Below are positions 1 to 46,359 of a DNA stretch of 64,000 nucleotides, piece by piece. Source of the DNA: Patescibacteria group bacterium (GTDB taxonomy: Bacteria > Patescibacteriota > Patescibacteriia > 2-12-FULL-60-25); assembly GCA_028688515.1 (NCBI GenBank), contig JAQTXZ010000003.1, positions 1 through 64,000 of the forward strand. The letters run 5' to 3'. The notes beneath the pieces are model-generated. The model searched no databases. It was not told where the DNA came from and worked only from the letters and a program-made list of their open reading frames with translations. The position numbers and the translations under genes were made by a program. Positions within the stretch are counted from its first letter, which is position 1, and every line of letters starts with the position of its first letter.

Positions 1-1081
1 AGTAGTAGGCTTGCGCCCCTACCCCCATTCAGTGCTCTACCCCCGTTAAACTATGTACCAACGCTAGTCCAAAAACTATTTCAGGGAGAACCAGCTATCA
101 CCCAGTTCGATTGGAATTTCACCGCTAACCACAACTCATCCCCGAGTGTTGCACGGCTCGTGGGTTCGGACCTCCATCCCGCTTTCGCGGGACTTCATCC
201 TGGTCATGGTTAGATCACCGGGTTTCGGGTCGTGTATGTGCCACAAACGCCCTATTCAGGCTCGCTTTCACTATGGCTACGCTCCCGCAGGAGCTTAACC
301 GAGCGACACACAGCACACTCGTTGGCTCATTCTTCAATAGGCACGCCGTCACCCCTTGCGGGGCTCCGACTCCTTGTAAGCGTACGGTTTCAGATACTAT
401 TTCATCGCCCTCCCGGGCTGCTTTTCAGCTTTCCATCACTGTACTAGTTCACTATCGGTTAGGAGGAGTATTTAGCCTTGCCACATCGTCGTGGCTGCTT
501 CCTACGGGGTTTCTCGAGCCCCATAGTACTTTGGATCTGGAACAATATGAATCAGAAGATATTTCGTCTACAGGTCTATCACCTTCTTTGGATTGGCTTT
601 CCAGCCAATTCGACTATATAACTGATTGGATATCGGAAACCTTGGGGGTTCCACGTTCCGTCCGCAACACCAATTTGTGCGACAGCCCAAGCTCGTCATT
701 CATACCCGCGGTCAAACTTGCGTCCAACTCGGTGTACGAACTCACACAAAAAGGTTTAGGCTCGTCCGCTTTCGCTCGCCACTACTCACGGAATCATATC
801 CCTTTTCTAATTTCTGCGTGTAATGTTTCGCAGAAATTAGAAAGGGATTTCGTTTTTTTCTTTTCCTCTGGATACTGAGATGTTTCACTTCTCCAGGTGC
901 CTCTCGCTACGCCTATGTATTCAGCGCAGGATATCGCGACATCATCGCGATGGGTTGCCCCATTCGGAAATTCCCGGATCATAGGTTGCTTACCACCTCC
1001 CCGAGACTTATCGCAGGTTGCTACGTCCTTCATCAGCTCCTCGCTACCAAGCCATCCACCGTACGCCCTTACGTGCTTCGG
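1..1081 (-). rRNA. 23S ribosomal RNA, 5' part (cut by window edge)
   Basis: The complement reads as domain I and the start of domain II of bacterial 23S rRNA. The plus-strand blocks gggagaaccagctatcac, ccgggtttcgggtcgtgta, tcactatcggttaggagtat-like and gccatccaccgtacgc are the reverse complements of universally conserved 23S segments. The 5' end is placed near 1081 by analogy with E. coli, where the GGTGGATGCC-type block lies about 20 nt from the 5' terminus. Roughly the first third of the molecule is present. The gene reads off the left edge, so its 3' part, 5S and any downstream genes are unseen. It carries an extra hairpin (798-848). No 16S gene lies upstream: the next gene on that side, rlmH, points the other way. 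Confidence 0.97.
798..848 (-). other. Extra hairpin inserted in 23S rRNA domain I
   Basis: Arms ctttctaatttctgcg-like and cgcagaaattagaaag pair over about 18 bp with a single bulged base and an 11-nt loop. E. coli has only about ten bases at this point, between the blocks that read GAGGAAAAGAAA and CAGTAGCGGCGAGC on the RNA strand. This is either a helix extension kept in the ribosome or an intervening sequence that RNase III could remove; the sequence cannot tell which. Confidence 0.8.
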
Positions 1082-1651
1082 CCATCCAATGCTCCAACCC
1101 CAGGTTGGAATGGATGGTCAATTCGTTTTGTACGCTTTCTATATACACTTACAATTTTTGCATTATTAAGATAGATGCTTTCATCTATCAAGAACATGCC
1201 TTGTACGTATGATCTTCTATCAAACCTCTGCGGCTTATCATTGCAGAGGCTGATAATAAATTGTCGAAGTTCCTGCCTTTCTCAGCCGAGCTGAACTCGG
1301 TTGAGGCGGACACGGGTCGATTCTCTTCGAGCCAAGCTCGATGCACCGTCCTGTAGCCGTCTCACTTTTGGGTTTTAAAAAAACTTGGCCGAGGCCAAGC
1401 ATCATGATCTCAACAGAGATTCCTATGGGCTTAGCCTTGTGTCGAGTCTAGCTCGACTAATTGGGATTTGCTCATGATAGTTTAATCTCCATTGCTCTTT
1501 TCCGTTCGTCCCGCGTCTTACGTCCGCGTCATACTTGGGACGATTGGGACGAGCGACGTGCTACGTTTTCGTAAAGAGTTGGTTTTTTGACGTGCCCGTA
1601 TGATAATGTAAGTCACGACAACTGTCAAGAGACGTAAATAAGCCAAAATAT
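1082..1651. other. Gene-free, hairpin-rich spacer between 23S and rlmH
   Basis: No convincing coding region. The stretch holds at least six short inverted repeats: 1083-1117 (arms ccatcca/tggatgg and tccaacc/ggttgga), 1170-1189 (gatagatg/catctatc), 1226-1250 (cctctgc/gcagagg), 1286-1300 (ccgag/ctcgg), 1384-1399 (cttggcc/ggccaag) and 1440-1456 (gtcgag/ctcgac). It must contain promoters for both divergent genes. On the 23S side it may also be precursor leader involved in rRNA processing. Confidence 0.6.
1162..1191 (-). promoter_or_regulatory. Possible 23S rRNA promoter
   Basis: On the minus strand TTGATA (1186-1191) is followed after 18 bp by AATAAT (1162-1167), about 80 bp before the mature 23S 5' end. 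A perfect 8-bp inverted repeat (1170-1189) fills the spacer and overlaps the -35. The match is moderate and other candidates exist farther upstream, so this is tentative. Confidence 0.3.
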
Positions 1652-10834: not shown

Positions 10835-10921
10835 TGGTGGGCCCGGTGGGAATCGAACCCACAAGCTCTTTCGAGCGACGGATTTTAAGTCCGTTGCGTC
10901 TACCAATTCCGCCACGGGCCC
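10835..10921 (-). tRNA. tRNA-Leu (anticodon UAA), CCA encoded
   Basis: The complement folds into a class II cloverleaf: acceptor GGGCCCG/CGGGCCC, D-arm with GGTAGACGC, anticodon stem CGGAC/GTCCG-like around loop with TAA, long variable arm CTCG-aaa-GAGC and T-arm GTGGG-TTCGATT-CCCAC. Discriminator A and CCA are genomically encoded. Confidence 0.96.
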
Positions 10922-20896: not shown

Positions 20897-20971
20897 TGGA
20901 GCGGGTAACGGGAATCGAACCCGTCTCTAATGCTTGGGAAGCACTCATAATAACCACTATACGATACCCGC
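20897..20971 (-). tRNA. tRNA-Gly (anticodon CCC), CCA encoded
   Basis: Cloverleaf on the minus strand: acceptor GCGGGTA/TACCCGC, D-arm with TAGTGGTTA, anticodon loop TTCCCAA giving CCC, T-arm CGGG-TTCGATT-CCCG, discriminator T and encoded CCA. Confidence 0.94.
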
Positions 20972-21106
20972 TTATTCAATTAACAATGAACAAATAACAA
21001 TTAACAATTTTCAGAGTTCAATACTACATGTTTGTGTACATGTTACATGCCCTAACGGCAGTAGGTTAACAGGAAGAACTGAGTTCATCAAGATTGATTT
21101 TAAAAA

Positions 21107-21397: not shown

Positions 21398-21454
21398 CAA
21401 CTACCTCCGTTAGCAACCTGACCGCATATTCGCATGACGACGAGTAACGGTCAA

Positions 21455-21518
21455 ACTAACAACTGACAACTAACAAGAGCAGCTTAATAACTCTTGTAAG
21501 TTGTAAGTTGTCAGTTCA
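21455..21518. repeat. Family B palindromic repeat, copy 1
   Basis: Iterated aactgacaact/aactaacaagag words and their complement (ctcttgtaagttgtaagttg). The right end supplies the stop codon of the epmA-like gene. Related copies are at 46274-46353 and 52584-52617. Confidence 0.7.
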
Positions 21519-28451: not shown

Positions 28452-29657
28452 ATGGCTCTCCACTTTCTCGTCTTCGGCAACCATCCACGGCTATCTTTAG
28501 CGGAATTTTTGGCTTTTAAACCAAAGGCGAAAATAGTCTCCCAAACTCCAAACACCTGCATCGTGGAGATGAACGACTGGCAGGCTGATGTTCTAATGAG
28601 CCAACTTGGCGGGGTTATTAAGCTCGGCGACGTGATTTTGGAGTCAAAAGGGCTTGATCTGAAAGTTGCGGATATAGCCAAACTCGCTTCAAGCAAACAA
28701 GAGATCACAGGTCTCGAGTTTGGCTGGACATCCTTTGGAGGAAATGGAAAAGAGAGAAAAGTTTTTGAAAAATATCCTCTTCATATAAAACGCGCTTTAA
28801 AAGATCTGGGATGGAAGGTCCGTTGGGTCAGCGGCGAAGGCGGACAGCCGCTCTCCCCGGCTGCGGTTGCAAAATGCCATTTGACGGAACAACCAAACGC
28901 AGATTTTTGTTTGATGCTCGACAAAGGCAAAACTTTTTTGGGACGAACAACGAATGTGCAGGATGCCGACGCGTGGAGTTTGCGCGATTACGGCCGCCCG
29001 TGCCGCGATGATATCAACGGAATGTTGCCGCCAAAACTTGCGCGCATGATGGTCAATCTTGCACAGACGCCGGACGGCGGAACTTTGTTGGATCCGTTTT
29101 GCGGATCAGGCACTATTTTGATGGAAGCCGCTTTGGCGACAAGCAGAACAAAAATAATCGGCAGCGACATCGACGAACGGCAAACGGATGACACTTCCGG
29201 AAACTTGGAATGGCTTTTGAATAAAAATATTTTATCGCAAGACGATGAAACTCGTTTTAAAGTTTTTACTTCTGATGTAAAAGAAGTCGGGCACTATCTT
29301 TCGCCGAAATCGATTGATGCGGTTGTTACGGAAGGCTGGCTCGGACCTGCCTTAAGAGGCCGTGAATCGTTGGGCGAGATTCAAAAAAACGCATCTCAAA
29401 TCACTCAACTTTGGAAAGATGCTCTGGCAGCGCTTAAACCATTGATGAAAAAAGATGGACGCATTGTCGCCATTTTTCCGTCTTATAAAGTCGGCTCGCA
29501 AATCATTGCAACGGATTCGGACATCGACTTTGCGTCACTGGGATTCGCTTTGGAGGATTTGCCCGCTAATCTAAGGCAAATGGACATGTATTACGAAAGA
29601 ACCGGCCAACATCTGCGTAGGAACGTACGAATACTCGCAGTAACTAGTAACGAGTAA
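28452..29657 (+). CDS. Trm11/UPF0020-type RNA methyltransferase
   Basis: A Rossmann-fold SAM methyltransferase of the Trm11/THUMP-associated group, whose members modify guanine N2 in tRNA or rRNA. The SAM motif is DPFCGSGTILMEAA, preceded by the RDYGRPCRDDINGMLPPKLARMM segment diagnostic of this group. The usual catalytic DPPY is replaced by TEGWLGP at the corresponding place, as in some Trm11 relatives. The N-terminal half is probably the substrate-binding domain. The ATG at 28452 gives the natural start MALHFLVFGN. The last codons (AVTSNE) are encoded by a family A repeat. Confidence 0.82.
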   Translation: MALHFLVFGNHPRLSLAEFLAFKPKAKIVSQTPNTCIVEMNDWQADVLMSQLGGVIKLGDVILESKGLDLKVADIAKLASSKQEITGLEFGWTSFGGNGKERKVFEKYPLHIKRALKDLGWKVRWVSGEGGQPLSPAAVAKCHLTEQPNADFCLMLDKGKTFLGRTTNVQDADAWSLRDYGRPCRDDINGMLPPKLARMMVNLAQTPDGGTLLDPFCGSGTILMEAALATSRTKIIGSDIDERQTDDTSGNLEWLLNKNILSQDDETRFKVFTSDVKEVGHYLSPKSIDAVVTEGWLGPALRGRESLGEIQKNASQITQLWKDALAALKPLMKKDGRIVAIFPSYKVGSQIIATDSDIDFASLGFALEDLPANLRQMDMYYERTGQHLRRNVRILAVTSNE

Positions 29658-29724
29658 CGGGTAACTAGTGTCTGCCAGATACTCATTACTCCCTACTCTT
29701 TACTCGCTACTAGTTACTCGCTAC
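29640..29724. repeat. Family A palindromic repeat, copy 2
   Basis: taactagtaacgagtaacgg-type arms around tgtctgccagata. Same central word as copy 1 at 2124-2195. It supplies the C-terminal codons and stop of the methyltransferase gene. Confidence 0.7.
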
Positions 29725-29872: not shown

Positions 29873-31180
29873 ATGGCAAGCGACAAACCCGACCGTATCG
29901 CTCTTTCACAAGCCGCTTCTGGATCTACCTTTGTCCGCAGCAGGGACAAACTGATCGAAATCGACAAATATCCGGGTTGCGTCTTCAAGGTAAAGGCAGG
30001 ATCCGTGGATGTCGAACTGGAGTCAGCAAACCAGTTCAAAACCGTCGACCGCCTGGAAGAGGGTGACTACTTCCGTTTTCACCCCGCTTCGACGCAAAAC
30101 ATGGGATATCGAATCCGCTACCGCGTCGCGAGCGAACGCGCGGCACTCGAGGCCAAGACCGTACCCGACATCCTAGCGAGTATGCTCATGCTCAAGGAAG
30201 TTGTCCTTTCCCTCTCGAAACAGTCTTTGGTTCTGCAGGGTGTTATCGCTAACGGCTCCCTGCCCAAAGATGCGACGACAGGCCGCGGCGATCTCGCACT
30301 TCTCGAGAGTATCCAGGAAGAGCTCGAATTGCAGATCCAAGAGAACGGCAAGTTCAAGCAGCTCGTTGATGCTATGCGCCGTCGGACCATCAGGATGGAC
30401 GAAGAGCATGCCGACTGGAAAGCGCTGCGTGACAACGCCTTGGTACGCTACAAGGCCCTTGCCGAGAAAGCGACGCAAGCATCAGAAGCGGCGCAGCGCG
30501 TCATCGAGGAAGCTCGACAACGCCAACGCGATCTTGAGCTGCACGCGAATCGTATTCAGCGCGGACTGGACATGATCAGCCGCGACAATCCCAAGATGTT
30601 CATCCGCGACGCGGCGTTGCACTTGCTCTTGGGCGAGGAACCTCCGCGGCCGGATGACGATGATATCGAAGCGCTATCTCGCAGATTCCTGGATTCCGTC
30701 GAGCCGCCAGCAGCACAAGCGGATGACTCAATCGACTGGGACGATGTTTCCACCGGCGAACTCGAAGTTATTGCGGATGACGGATCGCCGACGAGTGTAA
30801 GCCTGGCAGAACCCAGAGAGACTATGTCGATCGGGCTCGAGCCAGAAGAACCTTCCGCACCGGTCGTCATCCCGCCGCCGGCGCGCGCACCTAGACCGGC
30901 TCCGGCGAGACGAATAACGCCGCCGCCCCTCCCCGCTCAGCCGCCAGCTTTCGACGCGCGTCGAACAGACTTGGGCATTCCCGGATTCAAGTCTGAACCG
31001 GATACGGACGTGCGCGATCTTCTGGATTCAATCAGACGCAAGCCGTTCACTCGGGATGAGATCTCTCCCAAGAGGACTTCCGATGAGGCTCCTCCAAGCA
31101 TCACCTTTGATCAGGGAGAGCTGGACGACGTCTTTGGGTCCGGAACTCTGGACTACCGTCTCAGGCCTACGAAAAAATAA
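29873..31180 (+). CDS. Orphan cytoplasmic coiled-coil protein with Pro-rich tail, 435 aa
   Basis: No family recognised. GAGGAG six bases before the ATG at 29873 sets the start; an in-frame ATG at 29798 has no ribosome site. The N-terminal 85 residues look like a small beta domain (STFVRSRDKLIEIDK, VKAGSVDVELE, EEGDYFRF). A long coiled coil follows (about 95-250, rich in Arg, Gln, Ala, Glu), then an acidic and very Pro-rich disordered tail (about 270-380) and a C-terminal motif region (DVRDLLDSIRRKPFTRDEI). The design suggests a scaffold that binds partners through short motifs. It is close to the receptor-like 26270 gene, but there is no evidence that they interact. Confidence 0.75.
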   Translation: MASDKPDRIALSQAASGSTFVRSRDKLIEIDKYPGCVFKVKAGSVDVELESANQFKTVDRLEEGDYFRFHPASTQNMGYRIRYRVASERAALEAKTVPDILASMLMLKEVVLSLSKQSLVLQGVIANGSLPKDATTGRGDLALLESIQEELELQIQENGKFKQLVDAMRRRTIRMDEEHADWKALRDNALVRYKALAEKATQASEAAQRVIEEARQRQRDLELHANRIQRGLDMISRDNPKMFIRDAALHLLLGEEPPRPDDDDIEALSRRFLDSVEPPAAQADDSIDWDDVSTGELEVIADDGSPTSVSLAEPRETMSIGLEPEEPSAPVVIPPPARAPRPAPARRITPPPLPAQPPAFDARRTDLGIPGFKSEPDTDVRDLLDSIRRKPFTRDEISPKRTSDEAPPSITFDQGELDDVFGSGTLDYRLRPTKK

Positions 31181-33143: not shown

Positions 33144-33797
33144 TCAACCAAAATACTTCTCCTTATAAAACTTCATCAGCTGCTCGACTTCCGGAATACA
33201 GGACGGATCGCCAGTGCCGACCTTTGTTTTGGATTGGATCTTGTCCAATGTATCTGCGCCTTCGAGCACAGCTTCTTCGATGTCGTGATCGGTGATTTTC
33301 AAAACCTTGTCGATGACGCGGCCCTGCTCGATTTCGATCTTGTCGATTTGTCCCGACTTGCGATAATAATCATTGATTGCGGAGCGCAAGGCTTTGTCTC
33401 CCAAAACGGAACAATGGATTTTACGCGCGGGCAAACCGCCGAGGCGCTCCATAATATCTTGCGGACGGATTTGACGCGCCTGCTCAAGAGTCATGCCGTT
33501 GTTTTCGATAACCATCGTAGACATCATGGAAGTTGCCGCAATTGCGGAGGCGCATCCAAAAGTTTTCCAGCGGCAATCAGTTAAGCGTTCTGTTTTTGGA
33601 TCAACTTTAATCCAAACGCGCATAACATCTCCGCAGGCAGGAGATCCGACAACGCCTTGTCCGTCGGCCTTATAAGCGGATTCGTCTTCCATGAAATTCT
33701 TGGGATGGAAAAAATGATCTTTGACGACATCCGAATAAAAACCGCCGTCCGAGTTTTTGCGCGGAGTGATGTCTGGTGAGTTTGTGGGTTTGGTCAT
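33144..33797 (-). CDS. iscU: Fe-S cluster scaffold protein IscU/NifU-like
   Basis: The scaffold domain (about residues 20-145) carries the three cluster-binding cysteines in GSPACGDVM, FGCASAIAAT and KIHCSVLG, with the Asp after the first Cys. The remaining 70 residues resemble the [2Fe-2S] BFD-like middle domain of NifU (HDIEEAVLEGADTLDKIQ, VGTGDPSCIPEV), but the cluster cysteines there are mostly missing, so that domain is probably structural. It accepts sulfur from the cysteine desulfurase encoded immediately upstream. Confidence 0.92.
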   Translation of the reverse strand: MTKPTNSPDITPRKNSDGGFYSDVVKDHFFHPKNFMEDESAYKADGQGVVGSPACGDVMRVWIKVDPKTERLTDCRWKTFGCASAIAATSMMSTMVIENNGMTLEQARQIRPQDIMERLGGLPARKIHCSVLGDKALRSAINDYYRKSGQIDKIEIEQGRVIDKVLKITDHDIEEAVLEGADTLDKIQSKTKVGTGDPSCIPEVEQLMKFYKEKYFG

Positions 33798-33805
33798 AAG
33801 TTCTA

Positions 33806-33907
33806 TTCGTCATCCCGACCGTAGCGTAGCGAAGTGGAGGGATCCCTTACATAACAATCCAACTGTTTAATAAGGGATTCCTCGACTACGTGCCATGAGT
33901 TTGGGCA
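33806..33907. repeat. Family F repeat between iscS and iscU
   Basis: cgtcatcccgaccgtagcg at the left end and ttcgctcggaacgacag at the right form imperfect inverted repeats, with an inner aagggattcctcg/gggatccctt pairing. Related copies are at 31577-31678 and inside iscS. Confidence 0.75.
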
Positions 33908-33938
33908 CTTCGCTCGGAACGACAGACAAGTCATTAAG

Positions 33939-35336
33939 TTAGAAATGCGACATATCCAATGTTACCGGACTTATCTTGCGCAGCATCTCGACAATGCCGG
34001 GCATTACTTTTATCACGTAGTCGATGTCCGACCTTATCGTGTCGTGACCGAGCGAGAAGCGCAAAGAACCATGCGCAGCTTCGTACGACATACCGAGTGC
34101 GAGAATGACATGCGATGGATCGAGCGAAGTTGATGCACAGGCCGAACCGGTTGAACACGAGATGCCTTTTGCATCCAAGTACAACATCGCGGCCTCGCCC
34201 TCGATGTCCATAAACGAGATGTTGACGTTATTCGGCAGGCGTTCGGCAGGATCTCCGTTTAAACGCGACTTTGGAATGCGTAAAAGTCCTTTTATCAATC
34301 TGTCGCGAAACTGCGCAAGACGCTTTGACTCTTTCTCATGATTTTTTTGCACTAGCTCCAAAGCCTTTGCCATGCCGACGATTCCCGGCACATTTTCCGT
34401 GCCGGACCTTAATCCCCTTTCCTGTCCGCCACCGATAACAGTCGGCGAAAGTTTAACTCCGCGGCGGACAAACAAAAGTCCGATGCCTTTTGGTCCATAA
34501 ATTTTTCCGCCGTTTAAAGTCAACAAATCAACATGCAATTTTTCGACATTCAAATCAAGATAACCCGCGGCCTGGCAGGCATCGGAATGAAACAAAGGGA
34601 ACGTACCACGTACCTCGTACAACGTACCACGTTTTGCGGCACGATATTTGAGTATCGCCCGTCCGATATCGCCAATGGGTTGGATGGTGCCGATCTCATT
34701 ATTGGCATACATGACGCTGACTAAAACCGTCCTGTCGTTTACTGCAGACATGATATCGTCGACTTTCACGACGCCATTCTTTTGAGGTTTAATGACAGTC
34801 AAATCAATGGCACCGTTCTTTTGCAGGCGCGTAAGTAATTCCAAAATTGCATGATGCTCGATTGCTGTCGTCACGACATGAGGCAAGCTTTCTCTCTTGT
34901 CATCCTTGCGTATGCGAGGATCCATCGGATTCTGGATTCCCGCCTTCGCAGGAATGACAGAGTTAGAAATAGGAATGACAGATATGATCCCGTTTATCGC
35001 CAAATTATCCGACTCTGTGCCGCCGGAAGTAAAAATAATTTCATCAGCATGACCATTTATGATTTCAGCAATTGACTTTCGCGCTTGTGTCACAGCCTTG
35101 TTCGCAGCTTGTCCCGCGGAATGTAAAGATGACGGGTTAGCAGCAATGGAACTAAAATAAGGCAGCATCGCTTTTAAAACTTTTGCATCAAGCGGCGTTG
35201 CGGCTGCGTTATCCAAATAAACCGATCTCAAACCATGACCAACTCGATGAGCCGTTGATGGTTTTGTGCGATGGGATTTCTCCACTTCGCTTTTACGCTC
35301 CGGTCGAAATGACAAAGGATTATTCGGCATAAACAA
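33939..35336 (-). CDS. iscS: Cysteine desulfurase IscS/NifS with repeat-derived insertions
   Basis: PLP enzyme removing sulfur from cysteine for Fe-S clusters. Core motifs are YLDNAAATPLD near the start, FTSGGTESDNLAI, the PLP histidine region AIEHHAIL, HSDACQAAGY, the PLP lysine in LTLNGGKIYGPKG and the active-site cysteine in STGSACAS. At 465 aa it is longer than usual (about 385-400). The excess comes from an N-terminal extension FRPERKSEVEKSHRTK (family F repeat), SVIPAKAGIQNPMDPRIRKD in the first third (family G repeat), and AAKRGTLYEVRGTFP before the HSDACQ motif (family C repeat). All are in frame. The start overlaps the end of iscR by 11-17 bp. Confidence 0.93.
   Translation of the reverse strand: MFMPNNPLSFRPERKSEVEKSHRTKPSTAHRVGHGLRSVYLDNAAATPLDAKVLKAMLPYFSSIAANPSSLHSAGQAANKAVTQARKSIAEIINGHADEIIFTSGGTESDNLAINGIISVIPISNSVIPAKAGIQNPMDPRIRKDDKRESLPHVVTTAIEHHAILELLTRLQKNGAIDLTVIKPQKNGVVKVDDIMSAVNDRTVLVSVMYANNEIGTIQPIGDIGRAILKYRAAKRGTLYEVRGTFPLFHSDACQAAGYLDLNVEKLHVDLLTLNGGKIYGPKGIGLLFVRRGVKLSPTVIGGGQERGLRSGTENVPGIVGMAKALELVQKNHEKESKRLAQFRDRLIKGLLRIPKSRLNGDPAERLPNNVNISFMDIEGEAAMLYLDAKGISCSTGSACASTSLDPSHVILALGMSYEAAHGSLRFSLGHDTIRSDIDYVIKVMPGIVEMLRKISPVTLDMSHF
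34599..34633 (-). repeat. Family C repeat inside iscS
   Basis: gaacgtaccacgtacctcgt iterated words, encoding GTLYEVRGTFP. Confidence 0.75.
34899..34971 (-). repeat. Family G palindromic repeat inside iscS
   Basis: gattctggattcccgccttc-gcaggaatgac, a palindrome type widespread in bacteria, here encoding SVIPAKAGIQ and DPRIRKDDK. Confidence 0.85.
35273..35318 (-). repeat. Family F repeat at the iscS 5' end
   Basis: On the minus strand tgtcatttcgaccggagcgt followed by aaaagcgaagtggag, encoding FRPERKSEVEKSH. Confidence 0.8.
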
Positions 35337-35733
35337 GTTTGGCGAGTGTCGTCTTTTTAAGCGATGCTAAAACATCTTTTTGCAAAAAACTCCAAAGCGA
35401 CTTGGAAGAGCAATGCGAAGCGACGGGACATTTTCCGCCGTTGCATTCAACAAGTGCGATCGGGCCTTCGAGTGCAGTCAAAATCTGTTCAGCTGTAATC
35501 TTTGCAGCCGGCTTGGCAAGCTTGTATCCGCCGCCTGGACCTTTGCGGCCTTTTATCAAACCGGCCTTTTTAAGCGCCATGGCTATTTCTTCCAAAAATC
35601 CCTGCGAAAGACCCATATGCGCCGCAACGTCTTTTAAACTGACAAAATCACCGGAGCTTTTGGCTTCGGCAATAACTGTCATGAGTATCAAACCTGCATG
35701 ATTGCGGGCGGAAACACGGAATAAGCTGTTCAT
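35320..35733 (-). CDS. iscR: Rrf2/IscR-family transcriptional regulator
   Basis: Rrf2-type winged-helix regulator of 137 aa. The DNA-binding domain covers about residues 10-75 (SLKDVAAHMGLSQGFLEEI, GLIKGRKGPGGGYKLA wing). The cluster-binding cysteines lie in CNGGKCPVASHC (spacing x4 and x5, slightly different from the x5/x5 of E. coli IscR). It probably senses Fe-S status and controls the isc operon it heads. The start at 35733 gives the family-typical NSLFRVSARNHAGLIL; two upstream Met codons fall in repeat-like acatgtggcatgtga DNA. Confidence 0.9.
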   Translation of the reverse strand: MNSLFRVSARNHAGLILMTVIAEAKSSGDFVSLKDVAAHMGLSQGFLEEIAMALKKAGLIKGRKGPGGGYKLAKPAAKITAEQILTALEGPIALVECNGGKCPVASHCSSKSLWSFLQKDVLASLKKTTLAKLVYAE

Positions 35734-35840
35734 AGATGCGACATGTGGCATGTGATATGCGGCACGTCTGATTAAAAGCCTAGTGGCTGGCTAGGAATAT
35801 ATAACAGACCACGAAGAGTGTCAAGAAGCGATGCAAAGCT

Positions 35841-35856: not shown

Positions 35857-36966
35857 ATGCGACATCAACATTTATTCTTTGTTCTGCTCATCGCGACTTT
35901 TCTTGCCGCTGGCTGCAATCAGCCTGTAACGGTTCCGCATGTTGCTGAAACACTCGGTCCGTCGGAAGTTGGAGGCGCGCCGTCTCAAAATGGAGGTTTC
36001 GGAGTTTTGCCAAAAATCAATTTCCAGACAAATGACAGCAGCGATATCGTAAACATCGAAACAGATCTGCCCACAATACAGCCGACCGTGACTGTTGTAC
36101 GCTTGCCCGCCGGCGATCTGAATCTGACTGAATTTCAAAATCTGACGCAGGCTATCGGCTTGCCGGCCGGGCTTGTCGGCGATGACACTCGCAATCTTGG
36201 CTACGCGCTTACGTGGACCAACAAAGAAAGTGCGGTTTGGAAATATTATTCGCTAGACCACAAACTGACTTTTACGAATGACACGACAAAACCCAAAAAT
36301 CCCATCGTCAATTCATGGATGGGCAACGAGCAGCTGATAGATAAAGTCGACGTATTTTTAAAACTACGCGGCATCAACGAACAGTTGTTAAAAAATATTC
36401 AAATCGCCCCGGCATGGAGCGCCTGGCTCGACAAGCTCGACAGACTGCAAGGCTGCGCGCCGACAGACGTTCGCAATCAAATTGTCGCTCTGCAAACATC
36501 CGATCAAATGTTCGACAAAGCTCCGCCTGCTTTGCCAGAAGTACCGACGACAGGCTGCGTTGCGAGTTATCCGAGCATTTTACCCGTGTCTTTCGAAAGG
36601 CTAGTCGACGGTTGGAATATCGTAAATAAAGACGGACAGCCTGAGTTAGGCGGACAAATTCTGGTCAATTCACAAACCGGCGAAATGGTTTCGGGCTGGA
36701 TGACTTTTCCCGACGAACCGCAAAGATCTGATTACGCTGCCATCGATACCGCGACCCTGCAAAGTCTATTGGAACGCGGCGGGCTTGCAGGCGACCTACC
36801 TGGCTATAAACAAATCACAGATATTTCTTTCGCCTTTGTCAGACTCTCCAAAACTCAAACTTACGATTACTCATATCTTGTACCAGCAGCTGTGGCCGAA
36901 GCCGTCAGATCTACAAATCTAGGTCCGCAAAGATACAGAATAGTCGTGCCGCTCATCAAACAATAA
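35857..36966 (+). CDS. Predicted lipoprotein, 369 aa, unknown
   Basis: A lipoprotein signal with lipobox LAAGC (about residues 15-19) is followed by a globular extracytoplasmic domain. It includes WTNKESAVWKYYSLDHKLTF, several Trp residues, a small Cys pair (GCAPTD and TGCVASYP, about 60 residues apart) and a C-terminal beta region (LGGQILVNSQTGEMVSGWM). The pattern of strand-rich stretches and GEMVSGW recalls YcdB/PepSY-like extracytoplasmic domains but I would not assign it. It is divergent from iscR; about 120 bp between them holds both promoters. Family C repeats follow the stop. Confidence 0.7.
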   Translation: MRHQHLFFVLLIATFLAAGCNQPVTVPHVAETLGPSEVGGAPSQNGGFGVLPKINFQTNDSSDIVNIETDLPTIQPTVTVVRLPAGDLNLTEFQNLTQAIGLPAGLVGDDTRNLGYALTWTNKESAVWKYYSLDHKLTFTNDTTKPKNPIVNSWMGNEQLIDKVDVFLKLRGINEQLLKNIQIAPAWSAWLDKLDRLQGCAPTDVRNQIVALQTSDQMFDKAPPALPEVPTTGCVASYPSILPVSFERLVDGWNIVNKDGQPELGGQILVNSQTGEMVSGWMTFPDEPQRSDYAAIDTATLQSLLERGGLAGDLPGYKQITDISFAFVRLSKTQTYDYSYLVPAAVAEAVRSTNLGPQRYRIVVPLIKQ

Positions 36967-37064
36967 CGTGCCTAACGTACATCACGTACATAACGTACAT
37001 CGCGTGTTAGGAACGTTATGCACGTTAGGTACGTTAGGCACGTTATGAACGCGATGTACGCTGG
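36963..37064. repeat. Family C iterated repeat, long copy 1
   Basis: gtgcctaacgtacatcacgt and further acgtacataacgtacatcgc words face their complements (cacgttaggcacgttatg), making a long imperfect hairpin after the lipoprotein gene. Confidence 0.75.
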
Positions 37065-37717: not shown

Positions 37718-37815
37718 CGCGAAGCGTACATAACGTACATCGCGTGCCTGACGTACATGACGTAAAAAAACGCGATGTACGCTATGCACGCTATGTACGC
37801 GATGTACGTTTTTTG
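37718..37815. repeat. Family C iterated repeat, long copy 2
   Basis: gcgtacataacgtacatcgc ... gcgatgtacgctatgcacgc arms around a short aaaaaa centre, ending at the gpsA promoter. Confidence 0.75.
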
Positions 37816-46192: not shown

Positions 46193-46273
46193 ATTAAAAC
46201 GTAGCTAATAGCCTTTAAGTGACATTAGTATAGCTTGAAACAAATTTGTGAACAATGCAACAACAAAAGACTA

Positions 46274-46353
46274 GCAACTTACAACTGACAACTAACAAGA
46301 GCGATTTAGCAACTAAGCAACTCTTGTTAGTTGTAAGTTGTCAGTTGTAAGTT
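46274..46353. repeat. Family B palindromic repeat, copy 2
   Basis: gcaacttacaactgacaact, aacaagag and their complements ctcttgttagttgtaagttg, a long near-perfect hairpin between dedA-like and sigma genes. Confidence 0.8.
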
Positions 46354-46359
46354 CTAACA

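Follow-up and report, generated by a model that had tools for sequence, protein, structure and literature searches.

In-frame dispersed repeats in the cysteine desulfurase gene of a reduced-genome Patescibacterium

How does a conserved enzyme come to carry pieces of repetitive DNA in its reading frame? The question is raised by the iscS gene of an ultra-small bacterium, a Patescibacterium with a reduced genome, in which repeats of three families, here called F, G and C, lie within one open frame. The genome (G000) measures 1.29 Mb in four contigs and is 99% complete, and the nearest named relatives of its IscS are Patescibacteria, several of them with the title Candidatus Uhrbacteria. We analysed a stretch of 64,000 nucleotides, referred to as the window, whose minus strand bears a cluster of rrf2, iscS and iscU, in that order. 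The features of the cluster are the following.

33144-33797, minus strand: iscU/NifU-like scaffold gene, downstream of iscS
33808-33924, no strand assigned: F-like element with CGTC..GACA ends between iscS and iscU; extent drawn by eye, one 12-mer match to F near 33828
33939-35330, minus strand: iscS, encoding a cysteine desulfurase of 463 aa if read from the ATG at 35330-35328, or of 465 aa from an upstream TTG
34602-34631, minus strand: family C heptamer array (GTACGNN)n, which adds a net 21 nt (7 aa) compared with the protein family
34898-34924, minus strand: second REP of family G, in opposite orientation, joined with the first into a 62-nt dimer (34898-34959)
34933-34959, minus strand: first REP of family G, of CGTC type, with a TGTC tag, 8-bp stem, 4-nt loop and CCA tail
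35225-35274, minus strand: a degenerate stretch that probably prolongs F as far as the conserved YLDNAA start; a weak assignment made by eye
35275-35314, minus strand: family F repeat in the N-terminal extension, a TGTCAT start plus a 34-nt core, with pLDDT below 50 at residues 1-32
35320-35751, minus strand: Rrf2-family regulator gene directly upstream, its stop overlapping the iscS start

Elsewhere in the window, part of a large-subunit rRNA gene lies at the edge (1-1082, minus strand) and two tRNA genes lie at 10838-10921 and 20900-20971. The IscU-like protein (33144-33797) has a match to a BFD-like [2Fe-2S] domain C-terminal of NifU_N.

The iscS frame (33939-35336, minus strand) is open for 465 aa from the TTG and matches Aminotran_5 (1.5e-73). 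Pfam PF00266 and the best Foldseek matches, which were IscS and Nfs1 structures, place the protein in the IscS/NifS class. Translation likely begins at the ATG at 35330-35328, two codons past the TTG, because in a congener (G002) the iscS ATG overlaps the Rrf2 stop in the same way. This ATG probably represents the ancestral initiation site, behind whose first few codons the F repeat would have been added. K278 and C400, which we take to be the PLP lysine and the conserved catalytic cysteine, are invariant across 42 aligned IscS sequences and are spared by the inserts, as an initial annotation of this DNA had claimed. The core of the protein is under purifying selection, with pN/pS of 0.23-0.30 against eight congeners at saturated synonymous sites.

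The same annotation had read three different repeat families in frame in iscS, and we found all three to be dispersed repeats within an open frame. The G dimer is read as VIPAKAGIQNPMDPRIRKDD. When each half was folded singly as DNA, both showed an unpaired TGTC tag, an 8-bp stem beginning with AT (8-9 bp in CGTC-tagged REPs), a 4-nt loop (4-5 nt in those REPs) and a CCA tail. TGTC stands at each outer end of 34898-34959, as in an HH dimer, and as DNA the whole dimer folds into a strong hairpin (z -3.85). Family G in iscS is a CGTC-tagged REP dimer with the hallmarks of family CGTC-1. Its own genome holds 17 matches to it at E<=1e-3, at 15 places (two places give two each), and 28 at E<=1. A search of the genome with the Y1_Tnp profile, by which G also agrees with the CGTC REPs in having no transposase, gave one partial match (profile positions 37-121), and its 3.25-kb locus contained no F, G or C core. 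The same search found no Y1_Tnp match in G014, a genome rich in G elements. A dedicated Y1 transposase was therefore rejected as the identified mover of these repeats. The surroundings of the partial match (L191, G000:C4 at about 29944-30195) look G+C-rich by eye, unlike the rest, and could be foreign or mis-binned.

The C array was delimited by TRF at 34601-34632, with a period of 7 and 4.6 copies, and it folds no better than its shuffles. Allowing up to 3 mismatches, we found twelve copies of C in the genome, and a reversed control pattern gave 0 matches. The 34-nt core of F (35275-35308) has 14 genome copies at the same threshold and is identical letter for letter to four of the others; it had 0 matches in 22 relatives, and its reversed control pattern likewise gave 0. 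Given the counts for the three families, and the reversed controls for F and C, we regard them as genuine dispersed repeats and not as chance resemblances. Replication slippage is a possible origin of the heptamers, but the recurrence of GTACGNN at a dozen places suggests that they also spread in some other way. Among the TRF rows for the window, 20 of 56 had period 7 and 13 of 56 period 9 (hand count). Period-7 arrays are the commonest tandem repeats there and often form inverted pairs (e.g. 2124-2195, 20977-21009, 21454-21516, 29639-29724 and 46259-46357); period-9 arrays occur at 36963-37060 and 37725-37808.

Family F is harder to place. Its segment in the extension has the peptide MPNNPLSFRPERK. 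F and G share the opening bases TGTCATT(T/C)C, and an inverted second half follows other copies of F, as it does in G; both likenesses were seen by eye and carry no statistic. We rejected F as a CGTC-tagged REP: it has no stem of 8-9 bp with a loop of 4-5 nt, and its left half folds like the shuffles (z 0.01). F is a separate REP-like element with outer bases as in G and a different fold. The three families had been described as unrelated, which holds for G as one CGTC REP dimer and C as one heptamer array, but not fully for F, since it shares its outer bases with G. That F is an insert is likewise upheld in part: its core is repeated 14 times, yet the congeners G006 and G008 have iscS extensions of similar length with no recognised repeat. 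In G005 and G007 the N-terminal extensions do contain tandem or palindromic repeats. The array of G007 looks like a local expansion, because it was found nowhere else in the G007 genome at 2 mismatches, and it is a weak case of recurrence.

Which start codon is used would decide whether F reaches the protein. If GTG (codon 18) or TTG (codon 36) is used, the F segment may partly be an untranslated leader. F might even be a mere spacer between rrf2 and iscS, with the start downstream and only G and C in the protein. The downstream GTG and TTG codons and the short N-termini of most family members would fit such a spacer, and REPs at the 5' ends of ORFs are often extragenic according to the part of PMC3733652 available to us. 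On the other hand, the ATG at the Rrf2 overlap has its counterpart in G002, and open extensions occur also in G005, G006, G007 and G008. We consider the spacer possible but somewhat doubtful, and it is compatible with our main explanation for G and C.

The position of the inserts in the protein was considered next to the model and the orthologues. The AlphaFold model of IscS, made from 42 sequences (that of the window and those of 41 of 80 homologous loci), had a mean pLDDT of 87 and a pTM of 0.86. Segments of at least three residues with pLDDT below 50 were only 1-32, 124-138 and 239-243, all within the three inserts, which are thus predicted to be disordered. In the model, G occupies the loop from helix 106-120 to strand 153-157, and C the loop from helix 221-234 to strand 248-252. 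The best solved homologues in phmmer align up to query residues 117-119 and resume at 152, omitting the G segment. The inserts are accordingly modelled outside the folded core, in loops for G and C, as the initial annotation had expected, and at the N-terminus for F.

Lengths in the protein family agree with this placement for G and C. We aligned 33 IscS sequences, including that of the window, from 38 genomes with a match, and 31 of the 33 could be measured for each loop. Of the 31 members, 27 share a single C-loop length, which the loop of the window exceeds by 7 aa, or 21 nt, the size of three heptamers. The other exceptions are G005 (+19), G051 (+8) and G016 (+2), and the 8 aa of G051 contain no recognised repeat. 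The G loop measures 9 to 21 aa in 29 of 31 members, and 36 and 39 aa in the window and G014, respectively. The orthologues thus have other lengths than the IscS of the window at the G and C sites and lack its G and C segments, which bears out the reading of these two segments as inserts.

Our strongest result is that different repeats recur in these two IscS loops across species. In G014, from another genus and with 27 genome matches to G, a REP dimer stands in the G loop and is read in another frame (CHSRAGGNP vs SVIPAKAGIQ). In G005, from the same genus, the C loop contains a heptamer array of a different motif, (TCCGACT)n, which has 46 overlapping matches in the G005 genome and 0 in G000, G007, G014 and G020. 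In G042, again from another genus, (GTACGNN)x3, equal to 21 nt, stands in the G loop (the motif was read at the iscS locus only), and this loop has 17 aa compared with 10 aa in the congeners G021, G041 and G043. A more distant IscS from Giovannonibacteria (L017) has a 19-aa insert bordering the G loop.

The idea that iscS is a singular case did not hold, because in this genome QueA, TrmD, LigA and RecO have in-frame inserts too. These genes were listed by tracing copies of the repeats, so the list is not a genome-wide census. QueA (L154/L179) combines an insert of G type with a C-type array and a CCCCCTTACCAAGGGGAG-type palindrome. TrmD (L165) has a G dimer at about residues 82-110, where solved TrmD shows a gap. 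In alignments, the solved homologues of QueA and TrmD lacked the repeat inserts, and congeners did not have them in this form. C arrays lie between the domains of LigA (L159) and RecO (L162), and two glycosyltransferases (L158, L171) contain copies of G and C. At the TrmD loop, which was viewed at the locus only, a further heptamer-like array is present in G006, and other insert-like sequences were seen in G004 and G005. Directly upstream of queA, a GTACGNN array occurs in both G005 (L151) and G000 (L154), so this may be an old copy or a site that was hit repeatedly. An in-frame repeat copy is possible at the N-terminus of GrpE (L127).

The families differ in how freely they can be read. All six frames are open in C, four of six in G and none of six in one full F copy. 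The contexts of all 14 F copies, 11 of 12 C copies and 16 of 28 G matches were compared; L157, near a contig end, was left out. By hand classification, C lies inside genes in iscS, ligA, recO and three weaker cases among its 12 copies. G does so in iscS, trmD and a glycosyltransferase among 15 places, with the grpE N-terminus possible and queA just below the cut-off, and F in iscS only among 14 copies. The order C > G > F is consistent with the idea that elements with more open frames are found more often inside genes, for few copies classified by hand.

Taking these results together, we believe, with a probability of roughly 0.8, that dispersed repeats keep entering genes and that those tolerated by frame and fold persist as translated, probably neutral peptides. 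REP-like palindromes and heptamer arrays would land in genes at random. Insertions that break the frame, carry stops or disturb the fold would be lost, while in-frame insertions would persist at the N-terminus or where a loop tolerates them, and iscS would have accumulated three of them. We infer from the sequence that the inserts are translated in the cell and that the decorated IscS works as an enzyme, and also that neutrality, not function, keeps the inserts in place. The observation of the initial annotation is confirmed, and its interpretation partly supported.

A more ambitious explanation is a proteome-wide system that diversifies loops. Here a spreading process would put 21-nt heptamer packets and REP dimers into many core enzymes, giving species-specific, changing peptides in the same few loops. 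We hold this to be unlikely. It is still less probable that the inserts are functional and maintained by selection, tuning how stable the enzyme is, which partners it binds or where it is located. The host enzyme is conserved and the same loops are hit repeatedly, as a function would lead one to expect, but the peptides are unrelated between species, and the frame in which one type of element is read varies. Moreover, most family members have no inserts, the segments are predicted to be disordered, and F looks young, sharing 34 of 34 bases with four other copies. Could the inserts be removed by RNA processing or skipped by ribosome bypassing, leaving a mature IscS of normal length? The hairpin of the G dimer would suit such a process. 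However, the inserts of IscS, QueA and TrmD are in frame and without stops, which removal would not need, and the C array has no such fold, so we give this very little credence. An artefact of assembly or binning is the least probable of all, for although the genome is a draft, elements of 30-66 nt are small next to typical reads, the frame is unbroken and the same sites are hit in separate assemblies of other species.

If the inserts are indeed translated, protein segments derived from at least two repeat classes, a phenomenon best known from Rickettsia, are also found in enzymes of a Patescibacterium with a reduced genome. The group offers a natural insertion-scanning experiment on conserved enzymes, because close species have different repeats in the same loops. 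There is also a warning for annotation: in such genomes, length differences and apparent extensions can be repeats.

Family G belongs with the CGTC-tagged REP superfamily (Di Nocera et al. 2013, PMC3733652), which includes RPE-4 and RPE-6 of Rickettsia and dRS3 of Neisseria. In the portion of that paper available to us, intragenic units are described, also two in one gene, and no transposase is reported; HH dimers with the tags outside are the predominant dimer type, and different REPs occur at about the same recB site in two Xanthomonas species. G resembles these REPs in its TGTC tag, 8-bp stem beginning with AT, 4-nt loop, CCA tail, outward tags, dispersal and, for the Y1 class, lack of a flanking transposase. 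The range given in the same portion (Proteobacteria, Chlorobi, Bacteroidetes, Spirochaetes and Thermotogae) does not include Patescibacteria, and in iscS, unlike in those cases, G is accompanied by an F element and a heptamer array.

The likeness to Rickettsia palindromic elements that had been proposed at the outset is supported by the place of G in the superfamily of RPE-6 and by in-frame insertion with the core spared. RPEs (Ogata et al. 2000, 2002) are described, in the accessible part of a review (PMC10969869), as in-frame palindromes in genes, about 150 bp long and with a conserved peptide. Like them, the present inserts include palindromic repeats in frame in unrelated housekeeping genes, and they enter conserved genes in the same way. 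The elements found here differ in having lengths of 21-73 nt; more than one of their frames is read, and some of them are not palindromes. Membership in the Rickettsia-specific RPE family was rejected, since the relatives of the host are Patescibacteria and not Rickettsia.

Heptameric repeats are known as GGGNATC in Xanthomonas and Nostoc (PMC4692102) and as TAACTGA in Beggiatoaceae (PMC4679880), and are mainly intergenic in the parts of these reports at hand. C agrees with them in its unit length of 7 and in its dispersed arrays of few units (PMC4692102, PMC4679880), but its net 21 nt, exactly three units, stand within a conserved enzyme. We found no literature on such inserts in Patescibacteria among open-licence papers. 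REPs read in frame were thus known already, and our findings extend that knowledge to a new host group, to inserts made of heptamers and to loops in which insertion recurs.
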